Shown: positions 639-16,700 of the stretch, piece by piece
Position numbering within the stretch: position 1 is the stretch's first letter
How the letters are laid out: every line of letters starts with the position of its first letter
IMG/VR virus record: IMGVR_UViG_3300045790_000043
Location: 1-22,273 of that record
From: a virus
Length of the DNA stretch: 22,273 bases
Reading direction: 5' to 3' (one strand)
Program-made: the position numbers and the translations under genes
Notes under the pieces: generated by a model
The model's input: the letters and a program-made list of their open reading frames with translations, nothing else
Told to the model about the DNA's origin: nothing
The model's database searches: none

Positions 639-647
639 TTAGTTGGT
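639..647 (-). promoter_or_regulatory. ACCAACTAA leader motif of the left-edge gene
   Basis: Read on the minus strand, ACCAACTAA runs straight into the Shine-Dalgarno AAGGA and ends 12 nt before the ATG at 626. It is a 9-nt perfect complement of the linker of the candidate small RNA at 13656-13731 (TTAGTTGGT, 13677-13685). Just upstream lies a 5-bp hairpin CTGGT/ACCAG with loop TTGACC (656-671). Its loop is complementary to the loop of the small RNA's 5' hairpin (TGACCA against TGGTCA). Confidence 0.55.
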
Positions 648-4247: not shown

Positions 4248-4256
4248 ACCAACTAA
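4248..4256 (+). promoter_or_regulatory. ACCAACTAA leader motif of primase
   Basis: ACCAACTAA is followed by AGAAAGA, the likely weak ribosome binding site, and ends 15 nt before the ATG at 4272. It is a perfect nine-base complement of small-RNA positions 13677-13685, and lies nine bases after the 4224-4239 hairpin, the stem-loop-then-motif order also seen at the left-edge gene. Confidence 0.55.
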
Positions 4257-4271
4257 AGAAAGACCTACGCA

Positions 4272-5036
4272 ATGACCTATGCAGAACAGTTAGAGATTAT
4301 AAAAGCTATACCTGTACGAGAAGGTGAGAGCAAAGTAATTCAGTGTCCATTCTGTTATGGGTTAAAGAAACTAGCCCTGTCTAAGTTTGACGGTAAGATC
4401 ATGTGGAATTGCTACAGGGCTAGTTGTAACGGTAAAGGTATATACTCTGGTAAGCGTAGTGCTGAAGCAGTTAAGAACTATCTAGAAGACACTGTAAGTA
4501 TTAGAAGGTCTAAGCACAGGCCTATGCCTACAGTTACTGCATCAGTATACAATCATCCAGAATGCATTAACTTTTTAGAGTTATGTAACAGTCTAGACGC
4601 CTACGAGAGAGGATACGTAAAGGTTAAGTATGCTCCTGCAGAAGACAGGGTTCTGTTCTGTGCAACCAATGGTGCTGTAGGTAGACTGCTATCAGGCTCT
4701 GGTCCTAAGTGGATCAGCTACGGTGAGCTACCTAGTGGCATACACGTTGGTGTAGGCTCTACTGCTGTGCTGGTTGAAGACGTACCCAGTGCCTGTAGTG
4801 TTAGTAGAATAGAAGGCATGGTTGGTGTGGCACTACTTGGTACTACTATCACCGCTGGTATCAAGAGTACTCTCTCAGAGTATGATAACTGTTATTTGGT
4901 ACTGGACAAGGATGCATCAGTTAAATCTTTGAAGCAAAGTAAAAGCATAAGTCGTAACATTAAAGTGCGTTTTACCTCAGAGGATTTAAAATACTTGACT
5001 ACGGATAAAATACAGGACTTAATACACATCAGCTAA
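4272..5036 (+). CDS. DNA primase, T7 gp4 N-terminal type, without helicase domain
   Basis: The protein would make RNA primers for lagging-strand synthesis. An N-terminal zinc-binding domain has Cys25, Cys28, Cys47 and Cys52. A TOPRIM-like domain follows, with the glutamate motif VED (168-170) and the DxD motif in LVLDKDA (D212, D214). At 254 residues the protein stops after TOPRIM; the helicase is a separate gene 36 nt downstream, unlike the fused primase-helicase of T7. It belongs with the helicase and polymerase that follow. Its leader carries the ACCAACTAA motif. Confidence 0.85.
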   Translation: MTYAEQLEIIKAIPVREGESKVIQCPFCYGLKKLALSKFDGKIMWNCYRASCNGKGIYSGKRSAEAVKNYLEDTVSIRRSKHRPMPTVTASVYNHPECINFLELCNSLDAYERGYVKVKYAPAEDRVLFCATNGAVGRLLSGSGPKWISYGELPSGIHVGVGSTAVLVEDVPSACSVSRIEGMVGVALLGTTITAGIKSTLSEYDNCYLVLDKDASVKSLKQSKSISRNIKVRFTSEDLKYLTTDKIQDLIHIS

Positions 5037-5053
5037 GTATAAATTAATAAGAT

Positions 5054-5062
5054 ACCAACTAA
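5054..5062 (+). promoter_or_regulatory. ACCAACTAA leader motif of helicase
   Basis: ACCAACTAA overlaps the Shine-Dalgarno AAGGA and ends 10 nt before the ATG at 5073, in the 36-nt gap after primase. It is identical over 12 bases (ACCAACTAAGGA) to the leader of the left-edge gene on the other strand. Pairing with the small-RNA linker would abut the ribosome binding site. Confidence 0.55.
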
Positions 5063-5072
5063 GGATATATGA

Positions 5073-6287
5073 ATGGACCATTCACTACTGAAAAATTTAC
5101 TAGAACATGAGTTCTACCTGCGTAATAAAGCCAAGCTACGTGCATCTCTCTTCGATGATACTATGCTGGAAGTGTATGAAGCTATTACATCCTCCCATGA
5201 TAAGTTTGGTATAGATATAACGGCTGTGGAATTATTTGCACACTGGAAGTCTACACATCCTACTGCTACCACATCATGGGCTGCAGAGGTTGAAGACCTT
5301 GTTGGCTGCATATCTAGTGCAGAACCTATATCAGACGCCATTGCGACAGATGTTATAGAGAATTTGTGGCGTCAGAGCGTAGGACTAGACATAGCTAACT
5401 TAGGTTTGTTGATGTCTGAGGGTGAATCCTCTGCAATGGATAGACTTAACACACTCCTTGACAGGGTGTCTGATGGGTATCTGCCTGATGACTTTGGTGA
5501 TGGTGTCACTGATGACATATACGAATTGCTTGCAGTCACTAGTAATGACAACCGTTTTAAGTTTAACATCGAAACCCTGTCCCGTCACGTATATGGAATT
5601 GGTGCTGGAGAGTTCGGATGCATTGCCGCCTACTCTAACGTGGGTAAGACTGCACTGGCTGTTAGTCTGTGTGCTGGTCCTGCAGGCTTCTGCCAACAGG
5701 GTGCGAAGGTTGTGTACATATGCAACGAGGAAATAGCTAAGAGAACCAAACTACGTGCCATAGGTTCTTACACAGGTATGACCCGTGAAGAGATAGACCT
5801 AGACCCATCTGCTGCTGCAGCCAGATACTCTGGTATAAAGGACAGACTTATCTTTGTTGACGCACAAGGATGGGACATACAAACGCTAGAGGGTTTCCTT
5901 AACAAAGAGAAGCCAGATATTTGTATGATTGATATGGCAGACAAAATCGAGTTGCATGGTAACTTTAACTCAGGACATGAGCGTCTGCGTGAGTTGTACT
6001 TCCGTCTCAGGGAGTGTGCTAAGAAATTTGACTGCGCCATTCTGGGAAATAGCCAGTGTAGTGCGGAAGCTGAAGGCAAGACCCGTATCACTATGTCTAT
6101 GATGGAAGGCTCTAAGGTTGGTAAGGCTGCTGAGTGTGATGTTATGTTGGGCATAGGCCGTATAAATTCTGGAGAGGATGATAACGATCCTAGCCGTTGG
6201 ATTACGGTAATGAAGAATAAAATCAGTGGATGGCATGGGACCGTGCAGTGTAACCTTGAGGCAGAGGTTAACCGTTATGTCGTTTAG
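5073..6287 (+). CDS. Replicative DNA helicase, DnaB/gp4 C-terminal type
   Basis: This is a RecA-fold hexameric helicase that would unwind the phage fork with the upstream primase. Residues 1-140 form a helical N-terminal part, and the ATPase core covers about 160-404. Walker A is AYSNVGKT (186-193), with Ala in place of the first Gly. CNEE (217-220) supplies the H1a glutamate, Walker B is CMIDMAD (284-290) with D287, and NSQCS (326-330) is the H3/sensor glutamine motif. The ribosome binding site is AAGGA. The gene's end overlaps the real polymerase start by 11 nt, so helicase and polymerase are translationally linked. Confidence 0.9.
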   Translation: MDHSLLKNLLEHEFYLRNKAKLRASLFDDTMLEVYEAITSSHDKFGIDITAVELFAHWKSTHPTATTSWAAEVEDLVGCISSAEPISDAIATDVIENLWRQSVGLDIANLGLLMSEGESSAMDRLNTLLDRVSDGYLPDDFGDGVTDDIYELLAVTSNDNRFKFNIETLSRHVYGIGAGEFGCIAAYSNVGKTALAVSLCAGPAGFCQQGAKVVYICNEEIAKRTKLRAIGSYTGMTREEIDLDPSAAAARYSGIKDRLIFVDAQGWDIQTLEGFLNKEKPDICMIDMADKIELHGNFNSGHERLRELYFRLRECAKKFDCAILGNSQCSAEAEGKTRITMSMMEGSKVGKAAECDVMLGIGRINSGEDDNDPSRWITVMKNKISGWHGTVQCNLEAEVNRYVV

Positions 6288-9332: not shown

Positions 9333-10102
9333 TGGGTATTATCCATGATATGACAAATGAGGTATACCATGCTACGGCTGGTATATCCTCTTCACCCGTA
9401 AAGACGGTGTATAAAAAATCACTGTCTCATTGGAAAGGGGAGAAGCGTAGGCAAACGGCTGCTTTTACTATGGGGTCTGCTGTTCACGCTCTTCTATTAG
9501 AGGAAAATAAAAACATTGTTGTCAAAGGTCCAAAGACTAAAGCTTCTAAAGCTTTTAAGGACTTAGAGGAAACTCTTGATGCGGAACAGATACTACTGAC
9601 TGAAGTTGAGTGGTATACGGCTAAAGCAATATCTAAAGGTGCTTTGTCTAATCCTACCATCAAGTCTCTACTGCGTCACAAAGATCGTCAGAACGAGGTA
9701 TCCATCTTCGTAGAGTGTGAAGATACGGGACTTATGCTTAAAACTAGACCTGATTTAATGATCCTGTCTGAGCAAGGTTTGTACGATGTAAAGACTACAC
9801 AGGATGCAAGCCCAAGAGGGTTTTCAAAAGAGTGTACTTTGTATGCATACGACATTCAGGCAGCGTTTTATTTATATGTATGCCAACTTGCAGGTCTGGA
9901 CGTTAAGGAATTTTCTTTCTTGGCGGTTGAAAAGTCTGCACCGTATGTCAGCCATATGCACGTTGTTGGACCAGAGCTACTGGAATCTGCGACTATACGT
10001 ATGAAACAAGTGTTGCGTACTATTGCGGAAGCTAACAACAAGGAAGAATACGGCACTGGTTGGGGTGACTATACAATCCTTGGCAAACCATCGTGGCTCT
10101 AA
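9332..10102 (+). CDS. RecE/Cas4-like PD-(D/E)XK exonuclease
   Basis: The protein resembles the C-terminal nuclease domain of RecE (exonuclease VIII), which resects double-stranded ends. Visible features in order are YHATAGISSSPVK near 12-24, the family opening; H52 in MGSAVHALLLE; the metal ligand D141 in TRPDLMI; the DxK pair D152 and K154 in YDVKTT; and the QxxxY pair Q176 and Y180. The length of 256 residues is normal for a stand-alone phage member. It is coupled to the 8502 gene by a one-base overlap and to the next nuclease by ten bases. It could process concatemers or recombination ends with the candidate ssDNA-binding protein. Confidence 0.85.
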   Translation: MGIIHDMTNEVYHATAGISSSPVKTVYKKSLSHWKGEKRRQTAAFTMGSAVHALLLEENKNIVVKGPKTKASKAFKDLEETLDAEQILLTEVEWYTAKAISKGALSNPTIKSLLRHKDRQNEVSIFVECEDTGLMLKTRPDLMILSEQGLYDVKTTQDASPRGFSKECTLYAYDIQAAFYLYVCQLAGLDVKEFSFLAVEKSAPYVSHMHVVGPELLESATIRMKQVLRTIAEANNKEEYGTGWGDYTILGKPSWL

Positions 10103-10443
10103 CGCCACAATCTGCTAAGGCTAAAGGAAGACGGTTTCAGCAATGGTGCAGAGATAAGATTTTATCTACGTATCCAAAGCTGGAACCGGATGACTGCAGA
10201 TCAACATCTATGGGTGCAAATGGTGAAGACATACAAATGTCACCTGCCTGTAGAAAATTGTTTCCCTACTCTGTAGAGTGCAAGAACAACTCTAAAAACG
10301 CTATCTATAAAGTTATGGAACAAGCCGCCGCAAACTGCCCTAAAGGGGCAACTCCACTAGCCTTAATAAAAGCAGATCGACATAAGCCATTAGCGGTTGT
10401 CGATGCAGAACACTTCTTTCAACTAACAAAGAAAAGTAGGTAA
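10093..10443 (+). CDS. PD-(D/E)XK endonuclease-like protein
   Basis: A compact 116-residue nuclease of the type common in marine phages. The N-terminus is basic (AKAKGRRFQQWCRDK, 8-22). The catalytic set appears as E45/D46 in GEDIQMS, followed by E62 and K64 in VECKN, the usual D-x(n)-ExK arrangement. This suits a structure-specific or resolvase-like enzyme similar in role to T7 endonuclease I. The start is a GTG overlapping the exonuclease stop, with no strong Shine-Dalgarno, which points to translational coupling. Its 3' end contains CAACTAAC (10420-10427), a perfect 8-nt complement to the small-RNA linker, 19 nt before the next start codon. Confidence 0.75.
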   Translation: MALTPQSAKAKGRRFQQWCRDKILSTYPKLEPDDCRSTSMGANGEDIQMSPACRKLFPYSVECKNNSKNAIYKVMEQAAANCPKGATPLALIKADRHKPLAVVDAEHFFQLTKKSR

Positions 10444-10446
10444 CCT

Positions 10447-10776
10447 ATGAACGTACATGACCTAGACCCTGATGTATTAGCTATACACCTTAAAATAGAT
10501 GACGATGGAGACTTCCAAGTAACTATCGGTCATAACCTAGAAGAACAGGACTATGAGGAAGGTGAGTTAGAATTTTTCAATGATCTTCTTAACGGCATAT
10601 CTTTCAGTATTAACTTTGGTATTGAAACTATGGCTGCACAGGGAGCTATCATGCGTAAACTTCAGCAGTTTTCTGATGAAGAAGACGAAAACGAAATACT
10701 CTTTGAACCTGATGAAGCCTTAGTAAAGGCTATGCAAGATAGTAAAGTAGTATCTATAAAAAGAAAGTTAAACTAA
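10447..10776 (+). CDS. Hypothetical acidic protein, 109 aa
   Basis: Unrecognised. It is strongly acidic, with DDDGD (18-22), EEQDYEEGELE (32-42) and DEEDENE (76-82) clusters and a short basic tail (SIKRKLN). The binding site AGG lies six bases before the ATG, and the DUF3310 gene begins on its stop codon. Such acidic proteins sometimes mimic DNA or bind basic partners, but there is no direct evidence here. Confidence 0.7.
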   Translation: MNVHDLDPDVLAIHLKIDDDGDFQVTIGHNLEEQDYEEGELEFFNDLLNGISFSINFGIETMAAQGAIMRKLQQFSDEEDENEILFEPDEALVKAMQDSKVVSIKRKLN

Positions 10777-13603: not shown

Positions 13604-13637
13604 AATAGCCTACAGATCGCTTGACCTATAGGCTATT
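13604..13637. repeat. Inverted repeat overlapping the small-RNA promoter
   Basis: AATAGCCTA (13604-13612) and TAGGCTATT (13629-13637) are a perfect nine-base inverted repeat with a 16-nt spacer. The right arm lies inside the spacer of the promoter at 13621-13649, and the -35 hexamer lies between the arms. No U-tract follows, so a terminator is unlikely. A repressor operator, or an RNA stem at the end of the reductase transcript, are the two readings. Confidence 0.45.
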
Positions 13638-13649
13638 ACTTGGTATAAC
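13621..13649 (+). promoter_or_regulatory. Sigma70-like promoter of the candidate small RNA
   Basis: TTGACC (13621-13626), exactly 17 bp, then TATAAC (13644-13649): five of six matches in each hexamer. No plus-strand open reading frame follows; transcription predicted from about 13656 would meet a terminator after about 76 nt. The position of the start, on the first base of a hairpin, supports a dedicated RNA gene. Confidence 0.6.
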
Positions 13650-13655
13650 TACTAT

Positions 13656-13731
13656 GAAAGGTTTGGTCACCTTTCGTTAGTTGGTAGAAGCCCTGCACTG
13701 GTATTCCTTTCTCAGTGTGGGGCTTCTTTTA
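13656..13731 (+). ncRNA. Candidate phage trans-acting small RNA
   Basis: The predicted transcript of about 76 nt has three parts. A 5' hairpin (13656-13675) has stem GAAAGGT/ACCTTTC and loop TTGGTC. A 10-nt unpaired linker GTTAGTTGGT (13676-13685) follows. A 15-bp terminator hairpin (13686-13727) ends in TTTTATTT. The linker is complementary to ACCAACTAA in the leaders at 639-647, 4248-4256 and 5054-5062, to ACCAACTA at 943-950, to the reductase at 11521-11530, and to CAACTAAC at 10420-10427. The loop repeats TTGGT, so ACCAA could be recognised twice. GAAAGG can also pair with CCTTTC in the terminator loop (13706-13711), an alternative fold. Pairing next to ribosome binding sites suggests repression of early and replication genes. 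It overlaps no gene. Confidence 0.5.
13686..13731 (+). terminator. Intrinsic terminator at the convergent junction
   Basis: A 15-bp stem (13686-13700 with 13713-13727), a 12-nt loop and a T-rich tail TTTTATTT ending just before the virion operon's last stop codon (13733). Two of the pairs are G-U on the plus strand and would be A-C mismatches in a minus-strand transcript. The minus-strand tail is also not U-rich, so the structure is built to stop plus-strand transcription from the reductase operon and from the small-RNA promoter. Confidence 0.85.
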
Positions 13732-13732
13732 T

Positions 13733-16700
13733 TTACTTAACTCTTTTAATAGCGTTCACTACCGCACCACCAGCTTTAAGTAATGATTCTGTTTGATCTG
13801 TAACAGCATCTGGTAAAAGACTATAGCCAGCTTCTATTGCAGCCTCTCCACCACTTTCTTCCCCGTCTTCAGCCGTAAGTCCTCTCAAAGTACCTACAGT
13901 TAAATACTTTTCTAGCATTTCTCCTAGAATAGGGTCTGTAGGAGTTTTGTTATACTTAGCGGCAAGCTCTAAGAAGTATTCTGGTTCTGCAAGAAGCCTG
14001 ATAAGTATTTGATTTGCCTGTCTGTCGGGCATCATAGCATTAAGACCTGCAGCCGCACCTGTCCTGATTTGTGTACCAAGTCTAGTCAACGGACCAAGGA
14101 AAATGTTAATACCAGCCTGTACGGAAGATAAAGCAGCTTTATTATAGGCTGTAGAAGACTGACTTGGGTTAGAAGTAGCTCGTTGACCTTTAGCTGATAC
14201 CTTACCAGCCTCTAGTATCTGAGCAAATGCCTTAGTAAACTCACTGTCTGTACCATAAATATCTTCTGTTAGTTTTAAGAGGGGATCAAGACCTTCTTGT
14301 GCTTTTTGTATCTTATCTACGGATAGCTGCCTGACATCTGTTATGTCTGTTTGGGAGTTAAGGACTGTCTTTCTAGCATGCTGATTGTATGCTACCTTTA
14401 GACCGTCCATTATGATCTTCTTTTGAGATGGCCCTGCACTATCCGCTAGAGCCAATAACTCTGCTATCTCGTTAGTACTTTCTGGGCTGGTAAACATCTT
14501 AAAGAATTTGTCTTGGTAGTTATTAGTAGCAACTAGAGTATCGTCACCTCTTGCAAAGCTAAGTTTGGTCCTATTTCTATCTAAGAAATTGTTTATGACC
14601 ATACTCTGTATTTCTTCTTTCTTTGCTCCTGATAATTCTTTAGCCCTCAGTAATACTTCTTCCATAGCTTCGCGGGAGCCTTGAGCGGCATCTAGGTTCT
14701 TAACTAGCTGTTGTATTACATCATGTTTCTCAGGGAACGCCAGACGTAGTGATCTGGCATACTTTTGTAGGCTAGAAGAGAAGGAAGTAAAGTCTGCACC
14801 CTGCATACCCATGTCAGAGAGACGAATACTATCTGCAAAGGCACTAACTGTGTCAAATATAGTATAGTCTAACACTGCTTCTGCACGTCCTAGCGGTATA
14901 TTTCCCTGTGCGGGATCAGCAGTCTTTAAAAGGTTTACTAAGTTTAGTACCTTTTCAGGATTACCACTACCCAGAAGTTCATTAACTAAAAGTTCGTCTA
15001 AGTCTTCTGCATATCCTTGACCTTTCATTAAAATACCATCTGGGCCTTGTGCAGAAAGATCAGTGGGATCAGTCCTACCAATAGTTCTTTGATACAACTT
15101 ACCAAATTTTTGTAGAACTCCATCTCCTCTAAAGGCGGGAGAGAACGAATATTTATAGTATTTTTTTGCTGCAAGAGCTAAAGGTTTTATGGTGTCATCT
15201 TGTTCTGCAGCGAAGTCTAAGGCCTCACCATCTATATACTGCACAAACTTCCTTAGAACTGCTCCTCCCGCCGTAACTAACGGATCAGTACTAGCATACG
15301 CATTCTCTGCCATAACAGCGGCAAGAGGTCTAAGTTCTGTGTATAATTTAGCATAGGTCACCCCTTGTGAGGAAAGAAAGTCTGACATACCTTCTTCAAC
15401 CATCTCACCTAGTTTTGCTGACGAAGAGGCTGCGTCAAGAGTACCTTCTTCAACCATAGCGGCTATATCATTAGCAGCCTTACGCTGTATTGACTTTAAA
15501 CTATCTAACAAAACTCCTAGTGGAGAGTTTTTATTAAGGCCTGATAAGGCAGCATCTAACTGTTCTGGCTTTAACTCATCCAGAATGCCAATCATACCTT
15601 TAGCAGATACTTCACCCCCTTCAATTTCCATGAACAAAGCATTTTTTCTATTGCTTATGGCCTCAAAAGCATTCTGCATGCCTTGTTTTATTTCTGTTAA
15701 GGCTCCCTCTGCAGGTACTCCAATGTCTAGTCCTGATGCGGTTTCAAGGCGAGTTAATGCATCTATAAACTCTAAGTCATCAGGGTCTGTAGGTATTATT
15801 TTAGCCGCTGCATCATCAAAATTCTTTTGAGCCTGCTCTAAAGTAAGGTTAGCCCCGTCTACTATCTTCTGTCCTTCTTCTACAATAGCATCAGAGCTTC
15901 TAGCCATTACTCCTGTTGCGTCATCCGCATCAGAGTTTGCTATAAGATTATCTAAATCGTCAACCAAAGAAGCTTCTACGTTTTTCTGAGGGCCAGTAAT
16001 AGCCTTTTGTAGTGTACCCGTATTATCGCTAAGGGTAGCACCCGCCCTCATCTTTAGTAGTCCCGCCATATCTACGGTTCCATCTCCCTTTATAAAGGCA
16101 GAGATTGTGTCTACTACAATTTCATTTGTATCGTCACTATTAGATAAAAGCCTTGTAACTACCTTACTATTATCTTTTACAATCTGAGCAATCTCAGCAG
16201 CCCTTGCTGCAAACGCCTCTTTACTAGAGGAACTATCAATAAGGACCATACGTTCTATAAGGTCTAAATAAATAGCCCTATCTTTGCCGTTTATTAATCT
16301 ACCTCCTGATGAAGGCCTAAGGGCATCAACAATCCCTTTAAATATTAGATTGTATCCTACAGAAGTAACACCTTTGACAGTCTTAGCTGCAGTACTTATT
16401 ACACCAGCCCCGACCAGACCTTCAATGAAAACATTTACACGGGCTTCAATAGCGTCTGAAGATGCCTCACCGTCCTGTAAGTCTAGACCTTTAAATATAG
16501 CAAGGTCAGTATCAAAAGCAGCATTCTCACCTACTAAAAGGGTTTCCTCATCTGTACCTGTAGTTAACGCTCCCCCTAGAGCCGCAGAAATCTCTACGCC
16601 TATACCTCGTAGAAGCATTGGAGCGGTTTTAAGAGCATTGTATGCTACTTTGCCCGGAATAAATGCACCCAGTACTGCTGGACCACCATCTGCTATAAGA

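Follow-up and report, generated by a model that had tools for sequence, protein, structure and literature searches.

Putative small RNA gene at the early/late junction

The window, the whole stretch of 22,273 nucleotides that was analysed, is a virus record of 22 kb and has Roseobacter phage CRP-738 among its relatives. Its early genes run rightward (integrase, ThyX, primase, helicase, DNA polymerase and ribonucleotide reductase, RNR) and are followed by the putative small RNA gene and then by the leftward late genes. The features at the junction are:

13604-13637, + strand: conserved terminator-like hairpin (AATAGCCTA/TAGGCTATT) downstream of the RNR operon, with the -35 box of the small RNA in its loop
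13621-13626 (-35) and 13644-13649 (-10), + strand: sigma-70-type promoter TTGACC-17-TATAAC with a 17-nt spacer
13656-13731, + strand: small RNA gene consisting of 5′ hairpin, linker seed and intrinsic terminator (sequence, fold, orthologues)
13656-13662 / 13669-13675, + strand: 7-bp stem of the 5′ hairpin; the start is predicted at 13656, its first base
13663-13668, + strand: hairpin loop UUGGUC, the reverse complement of the GACCAA found at the start codons of targets; it forms the second seed
13669-13675, + strand: ACCUUUC, the hairpin's 3′ arm, which could base-pair with the Shine-Dalgarno sequence of targets (cofold structures)
13676-13685, + strand: 10-nt linker GTTAGTTGGT / GUUAGUUGGU, the first seed, which matches the phage's own leaders
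13686-13734, + strand: intrinsic terminator with a 15-bp stem (13686-13700 / 13713-13727), then TTTATTT (sequence, fold)

The promoter, the start on the first base of the hairpin, the 7-bp hairpin, the 10-nt linker and the 15-bp terminator had all been proposed in a first-pass annotation of this DNA, and all were confirmed in the sequence. The small RNA, which has a U-rich tail, folds at -35 kcal/mol (z = -6.0), and none of 200 shuffled sequences was equally stable. TTGAC is kept in nearly all relatives, its columns being invariant in their alignment. With its own promoter and intrinsic terminator, both conserved in relatives, the locus qualifies as an independent transcription unit, as judged by sequence alone. 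An Rfam search of the window returned no family at the small RNA and two chance hits elsewhere in the window.

The promoter overlaps the terminator-like hairpin of the RNR operon, the -35 box lying in the terminator loop in nearly all relatives. The T-run of this hairpin is weak in the window and strong in CRP-738.

Conservation of the RNA gene

The first-pass annotation had suggested searching related phages at the convergent junction. Sequence and structure searches found orthologues of the RNA gene in about 40 related phage records, positioned after RNR at or near the convergent early/late junction, and the linker and the leader motif co-vary among them (see below). The cultured roseophages CRP-738, CRP-3, CRP-212 and CRP-235 carry the gene. 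Linker types vary between phages (TTAGTTGGT, TTCGTTGGTT, CTAGTTAGAAT, TTCAAGTTAGAT and TTCAAGTTTAGTG). Both the RNA and the motifs are absent from the other HMO-2011 lineages searched (HMO-2011, CRP-345, CRP-207, CRP-603 and CRP-13) and from the cobavirus CRP-5.

The sequence of the 5′ stem is variable while its pairing is kept. Because stem length varies, an automatic consensus fold of the MAFFT alignment missed this stem, and it was tested on two sub-alignments. In the long-hairpin group 97% of the cells were paired and 4 of the 10 pairs had two-sided changes; the corresponding values in the short-hairpin group were 95% and 5 of 8. Stem covariation scores were 0.54 and 0.52, as compared to 0.00-0.16 for slid structures. 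A conserved RNA structure with compensatory changes, as expected of a base-pairing small RNA, is thus present, and because of these changes the locus is inferred to act as a functional RNA and not just as DNA.

Covariance-model matches on the minus strand before the helicase gene (records L114, L152-154, L165-167, L189 and L192) were rejected as extra copies of the RNA: they represent a primase-helicase terminator. A terminator-like hairpin lies between primase and helicase in several relatives (L132, minus strand, 9850-10000; L114, L152, L165 and L192), and therefore the helicase may have its own promoter.

Record L188 has three tandem copies of the small RNA (14414-14530, 14931-15059 and 15486-15606) with different loops and linkers. 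The 15-nt complement of the second copy, CTAAACTGAAAAAGG, is in the leader of the leftward gene 58-786 of the same contig. These copies are possibly duplicated RNA regulators in the course of divergence.

Predicted target sites in the window

The nonamer ACCAACTAA occurs exactly at 639-647 (-), 4248-4256 (+) and 5054-5062 (+), and as the complement of the linker at 13677-13685 (-). The predicted target sites are:

639-647, - strand: ACCAACTAA, which lies 13 nt ahead of where the left-edge gene starts (3-626, - strand; DUF7178, PF23802, E 8e-30)
929-937, + strand: ACCAGCTAA, a second near-site before gene 965-1327 (leader match)
943-950, + strand: ACCAACTA before gene 965-1327, which has no known family (leader match)
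4248-4256, + strand: ACCAACTAA before the primase gene (4272-5036), whose homologue is annotated as primase in CRP-738
5053-5080, + strand: two-part site of the helicase gene (5073-6287, DnaB_C), made up of TACCAACTAA (5053-5062) and, overlapping the start codon, GGACCA (5075-5080)
10420-10427, + strand: CAACTAAC, an 8-nt match before gene 10447-10776, a probable site (leader match, duplex energy)

Exact 9-nt copies of the linker complement thus stand, as had been claimed, upstream of the Shine-Dalgarno sites of the left-edge gene, primase and helicase, and the 8-nt match reported ahead of the 965 gene was found at 943-950 (within ACCAACTAG at 943-951). Sites with at most one mismatch numbered 16 in the window, as compared to 7.5 in dinucleotide shuffles, and none of 100 shuffles reached 16. 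The helicase site is the longest inverted repeat that the window shares with the small RNA. A duplex-energy check over the phage start regions, also proposed earlier, favoured the genes that had been named: among the 23 start regions of the window, helicase ranked first, the 965 gene second, primase fourth and the left-edge DUF7178 gene sixth, with the 10447 gene third.

In two leaders of the window the motif continues into UAAGGA, part of an extended Shine-Dalgarno sequence, and for this reason TAA alone is weak evidence. This doubt is removed by the comparison between phages, in which the leaders follow the linker.

Co-variation of the linker with early-gene leaders

In most RNA-bearing phages, several early genes carry in their leaders, just upstream of the ribosome-binding site, a complement of up to 14 nt to the linker of that same phage, as a rule no more than about 25 nt from the start codon. 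Bases specific to the phage often lengthen the match. For example, the matches were of 14 nt in L103, of 14, 12, 11 and 11 nt in L110, of 12 nt in L155 and of 11 nt in L185; in the helicase leader they were of 11 nt in CRP-3 and 9 nt in CRP-212. CRP-235 sites have an extra A, CTAAACTTG instead of CTAACTTG, as the linker of this phage requires. Each of the four cultured phages carries sites that match its own RNA. An unpaired seed complementary to leaders of genes located elsewhere is therefore present in these genomes.

Exact 9-mers of the linker complement had a 70-fold higher density in the -35 to -8 interval of gene starts than at other positions, and 39 start regions had the site in the sense orientation, none in the antisense. 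In members of the wider group without the RNA, linker-type motifs and GACCAA were each found in 2 of 211 start regions. Gene starts on metagenome contigs came from a simple caller; the annotated genomes gave the same picture.

Own and swapped linkers were compared by permutation, with fixed-length seeds, 12 genome groups and the RNA locus excluded as a target. The trace was 5.33 against a permutation mean of 1.96, and none of 50,000 permutations was as high (p<2e-5). This test supersedes an earlier one in which the RNA locus of CRP-235 had itself counted as a target. Related genomes remain non-independent despite the reduction to 12 groups. The first-pass annotation would have been refuted by relatives that keep the leader motif while the linker changes without compensation; this was not the case, as the leaders change with the linker.

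There were exceptions. Some phages that carry the RNA have few or no linker sites; at the gene starts of L143 and L140 no linker sites of at least 8 nt were found. Linkers of the same type taken from other phages did as well as the own linker in CRP-738, L101 and a few more.

Tandem CCAA repeats (CCAACCAACCAAC) serve as target sites in several leaders of L117, L118 and L110, and the linker could therefore pair in more than one register.

The hairpin loop as a second seed

The hairpin loop, in most cases UUGGUC and otherwise a variant of it, can pair with GACCAA, which stands at the start codon or immediately ahead of it. Own loops scored above permuted ones (p=2e-5). At the helicase start, the loop finds a complement of 10-11 nt in most long-loop phages, unequalled by other start regions; the matches are TGGACCAATC in CRP-738, TGGACCAATCA in L099 and L101, ACCAATCATTA in L132, and ATGGACCAATC in L110 and L123. 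In L155 the loop is UUUGGUUAU and the leaders have ATAACCAA. The helicase start of CRP-235 showed no match to its own loop. In some phages (L146-L151) the GGACCAAT motif is ahead of the start codon and not within the coding sequence, so that it is not simply a protein motif. The comparisons support the loop as a second co-varying seed, predicted here from sequence in addition to the linker seed of the first-pass annotation.

Both sites are present in many leaders. They flank the Shine-Dalgarno sequence in the order needed for RNA pairing, with a median gap of 7 nt. For example, CAACCAACGAAAAGGACCAATaaaATG in L110 is a two-part site straddling the Shine-Dalgarno sequence. Some targets have only one of the two sites. 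Many of the predicted duplexes would cover nearly the whole ribosome-binding site, since the hairpin's 3′ arm is also able to base-pair with the Shine-Dalgarno sequence. When own RNA-leader pairs were compared with shuffled leaders, no shuffle was as good in 5 of 6 pairs; the remaining pair, from L155, was within the range of the shuffled leaders (17/200).

Predicted target genes in other phages

Predicted targets elsewhere include genes for DUF932, DUF2786/DUF7168, an integrase (L103) and, among the targets of L185, a weak HTH protein, as well as small leftward early genes. Four leftward early genes head the list of targets in both CRP-3 and CRP-212. In CRP-3 these four best targets reached -14 to -19 kcal/mol, the helicase was fifth, and other start regions reached -7.3 at best. 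The terminase and portal genes of CRP-3 and CRP-212 were without a site, as were the late genes examined. These results come from accessible-seed tests at gene starts, which replaced a ranking of full-length duplexes over all 60-nt windows of the contigs that had favoured G+C-rich windows. They support a set of putatively targeted early genes much larger than that named in the first-pass annotation.

Proposed mechanism and role

The comparisons establish, at the level of nucleotide sequence, a predicted RNA gene, its conserved structure, the co-varying complementarity of two seeds, and the lack of sites in the late genes examined. That two separate seeds co-vary with their sites shows, as far as such comparisons can, that the pairing matters. 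We consider it very probable that the locus specifies a trans-acting antisense small RNA whose pairing with the leaders of early genes would block their translation; transcription, repression and role are inferred. The RNA, about 76 nt long, would be transcribed from a host-type promoter of its own. Loop, 3′ arm and linker belong to its 5′ half, which comes close to a phage ribosome-binding site in inverted form: the linker would pair just upstream of the Shine-Dalgarno sequence, the 3′ arm with the Shine-Dalgarno sequence and the loop at or just before the start codon. The targets would be the replicative helicase, the primase, DUF7178, DUF932 and other leftward early genes. The duplex would prevent ribosome binding and so turn these genes off together. 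Repression is inferred because the predicted duplex covers the ribosome-binding site.

Two roles fit this antisense RNA about equally well in the absence of expression data: shut-off of early genes during infection, or an RNA-based repressor of immunity or lysogeny. The earlier suggestion that one RNA could shut down early and replication mRNAs together thus stands for the pairing with multiple genes, which co-variation and energies support, while shut-off itself is only one of two plausible roles.

In the second role, to which we give serious weight short of an even chance, the RNA would do a job like that of the c4 RNA of P1/P7 or the CI RNA of P4 instead of a timed lytic shut-off. The difference is one of role only, as the mechanism is the same antisense pairing. 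CRP-3, which bears the RNA, was shown to integrate at tRNA-Met (PMC6918029), and the int-containing members of its subgroup are thought to be temperate (PMC9038755); by text search, neither paper names a repressor. The promoter is of the host type, the targets are replication and early genes, including the integrase in L103, and the seeds diverge between close relatives; if the immunity role is true, such seed drift would create immunity groups. Against this role, no resident prophage of the group was found in a scan of one genome per species, which gave only distant helicase matches on MAG contigs, and a repressor protein of unknown family could exist. The fuller proposal is one we offer only tentatively: that these temperate marine phages have the RNA instead of a protein as their master repressor, which would block early and replication translation, silence the prophage and give superinfection immunity, with seeds and sites drifting together.

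Alternative explanations of the leader sites

The motifs could be oriented DNA operators for an unknown phage repressor, with the junction copy as one more operator and the RNA as incidental. Oriented operators in leaders are known from mycobacteriophages, and the stoperators of L5 are likewise many, short, asymmetric and oriented. The sites described here are asymmetric and in a single orientation, and their specificity differs between phages. A test for G-U wobble did not separate RNA pairing from DNA sites; it was confounded by the tandem CCAA repeats and by edge positions. However, L5 stoperators are bound by protein at the DNA level without an RNA gene and would be independent of one, whereas these sites track the linker and loop of a single RNA gene. 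The junction copy is always in the single-stranded linker of a conserved promoter-hairpin-terminator gene with compensatory stem changes, a separate part of this RNA, the loop, changes together with a second site in the same leaders, the two sites following the antiparallel order needed for RNA pairing, and the sites cluster tightly around the ribosome-binding site and not at promoters. We therefore regard operators as a very improbable explanation.

If the sites are taken as RNA-pairing sites, the RNA might still activate or protect its mRNAs. The direction of the effect is not readable from sequence, and activation by small RNAs that open leader structures is known. The predicted duplexes, however, cover the Shine-Dalgarno sequence and extend to the start codon, as is usual in repression, which leaves activation little room. 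A chance similarity, with ACCAACTAA a part of the extended Shine-Dalgarno sequence as the UAAGGA of two leaders might suggest, is hardly credible and was refuted by the own-linker matches in the leaders of other phages, which extend up to 14 nt outside the Shine-Dalgarno sequence, and by the permutation test.

Comparison with known phage RNAs

In mechanism, the closest relative of this antisense RNA is the c4 RNA of P1 and P7. Both have two separate pairing regions around the ribosome-binding site; c4 is cut from the same transcript as its target. Membership of the c4 family fails, as there is no Rfam match and the new RNA has its own promoter and targets kilobases away on both strands. Pairing of a small RNA with phage leaders is also the basis of immunity by the P4 CI RNA, which acts by transcription termination in one operon, whereas the new RNA would be expected to target the translation of many genes. 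The sar RNA of P22 and OOP of lambda are both cis-encoded. The target of PreS of lambda is host dnaN, unlike the phage early genes predicted here.

A 2025 review of phage small RNAs, in the parts available, covers the single-target antisense RNAs sar, c4, OOP and PAK_P4as15 and the trans-acting VpdS and PreS (PMC12197685). There, c4 is a small phage RNA that controls a phage gene, ant, by base pairing and is linked to P1/P7 heteroimmunity, whereas the new RNA has its own promoter and terminator and several predicted targets across the genome. Similarly, sar and OOP control phage genes as antisense RNAs, sar having ant as its single target and OOP affecting cI expression, whereas the new RNA would be multi-target. 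VpdS of VP882 and PreS are trans-acting like the new RNA, and VpdS affects phage and host mRNAs; they differ in not being described in those parts as two-seed antisense to the ribosome-binding sites of phage early genes with co-evolving seeds. The same parts of the review held no multi-target early regulon of this kind (PMC12197685). A text search of the comparative paper on HMO-2011-type phages found no mention of promoters, terminators or repressors (PMC9038755). As far as we found, an RNA switch of this kind has not been described in the open literature searched.

Phage antisense RNAs are mostly known as single-target or host-directed; the one described here seems to govern an entire early regulon. 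Two seeds co-evolved with many sites across a widespread marine phage group provide unusually clear natural evidence of a joint change in the specificity of an RNA and its regulon. The RNA also offers a testable answer to how lysis, lysogeny and superinfection are controlled in integrase-bearing phages for which the papers text-searched describe no repressor.

In practice, the sites can be used on unannotated phage contigs to recognise early genes and the true starts of genes. In CRP-3 gp60 (L228, 9686; record 52685), the annotated start is inside a two-part site, and an in-frame ATG just after TGACCAA fits better; target sites can therefore correct gene starts.
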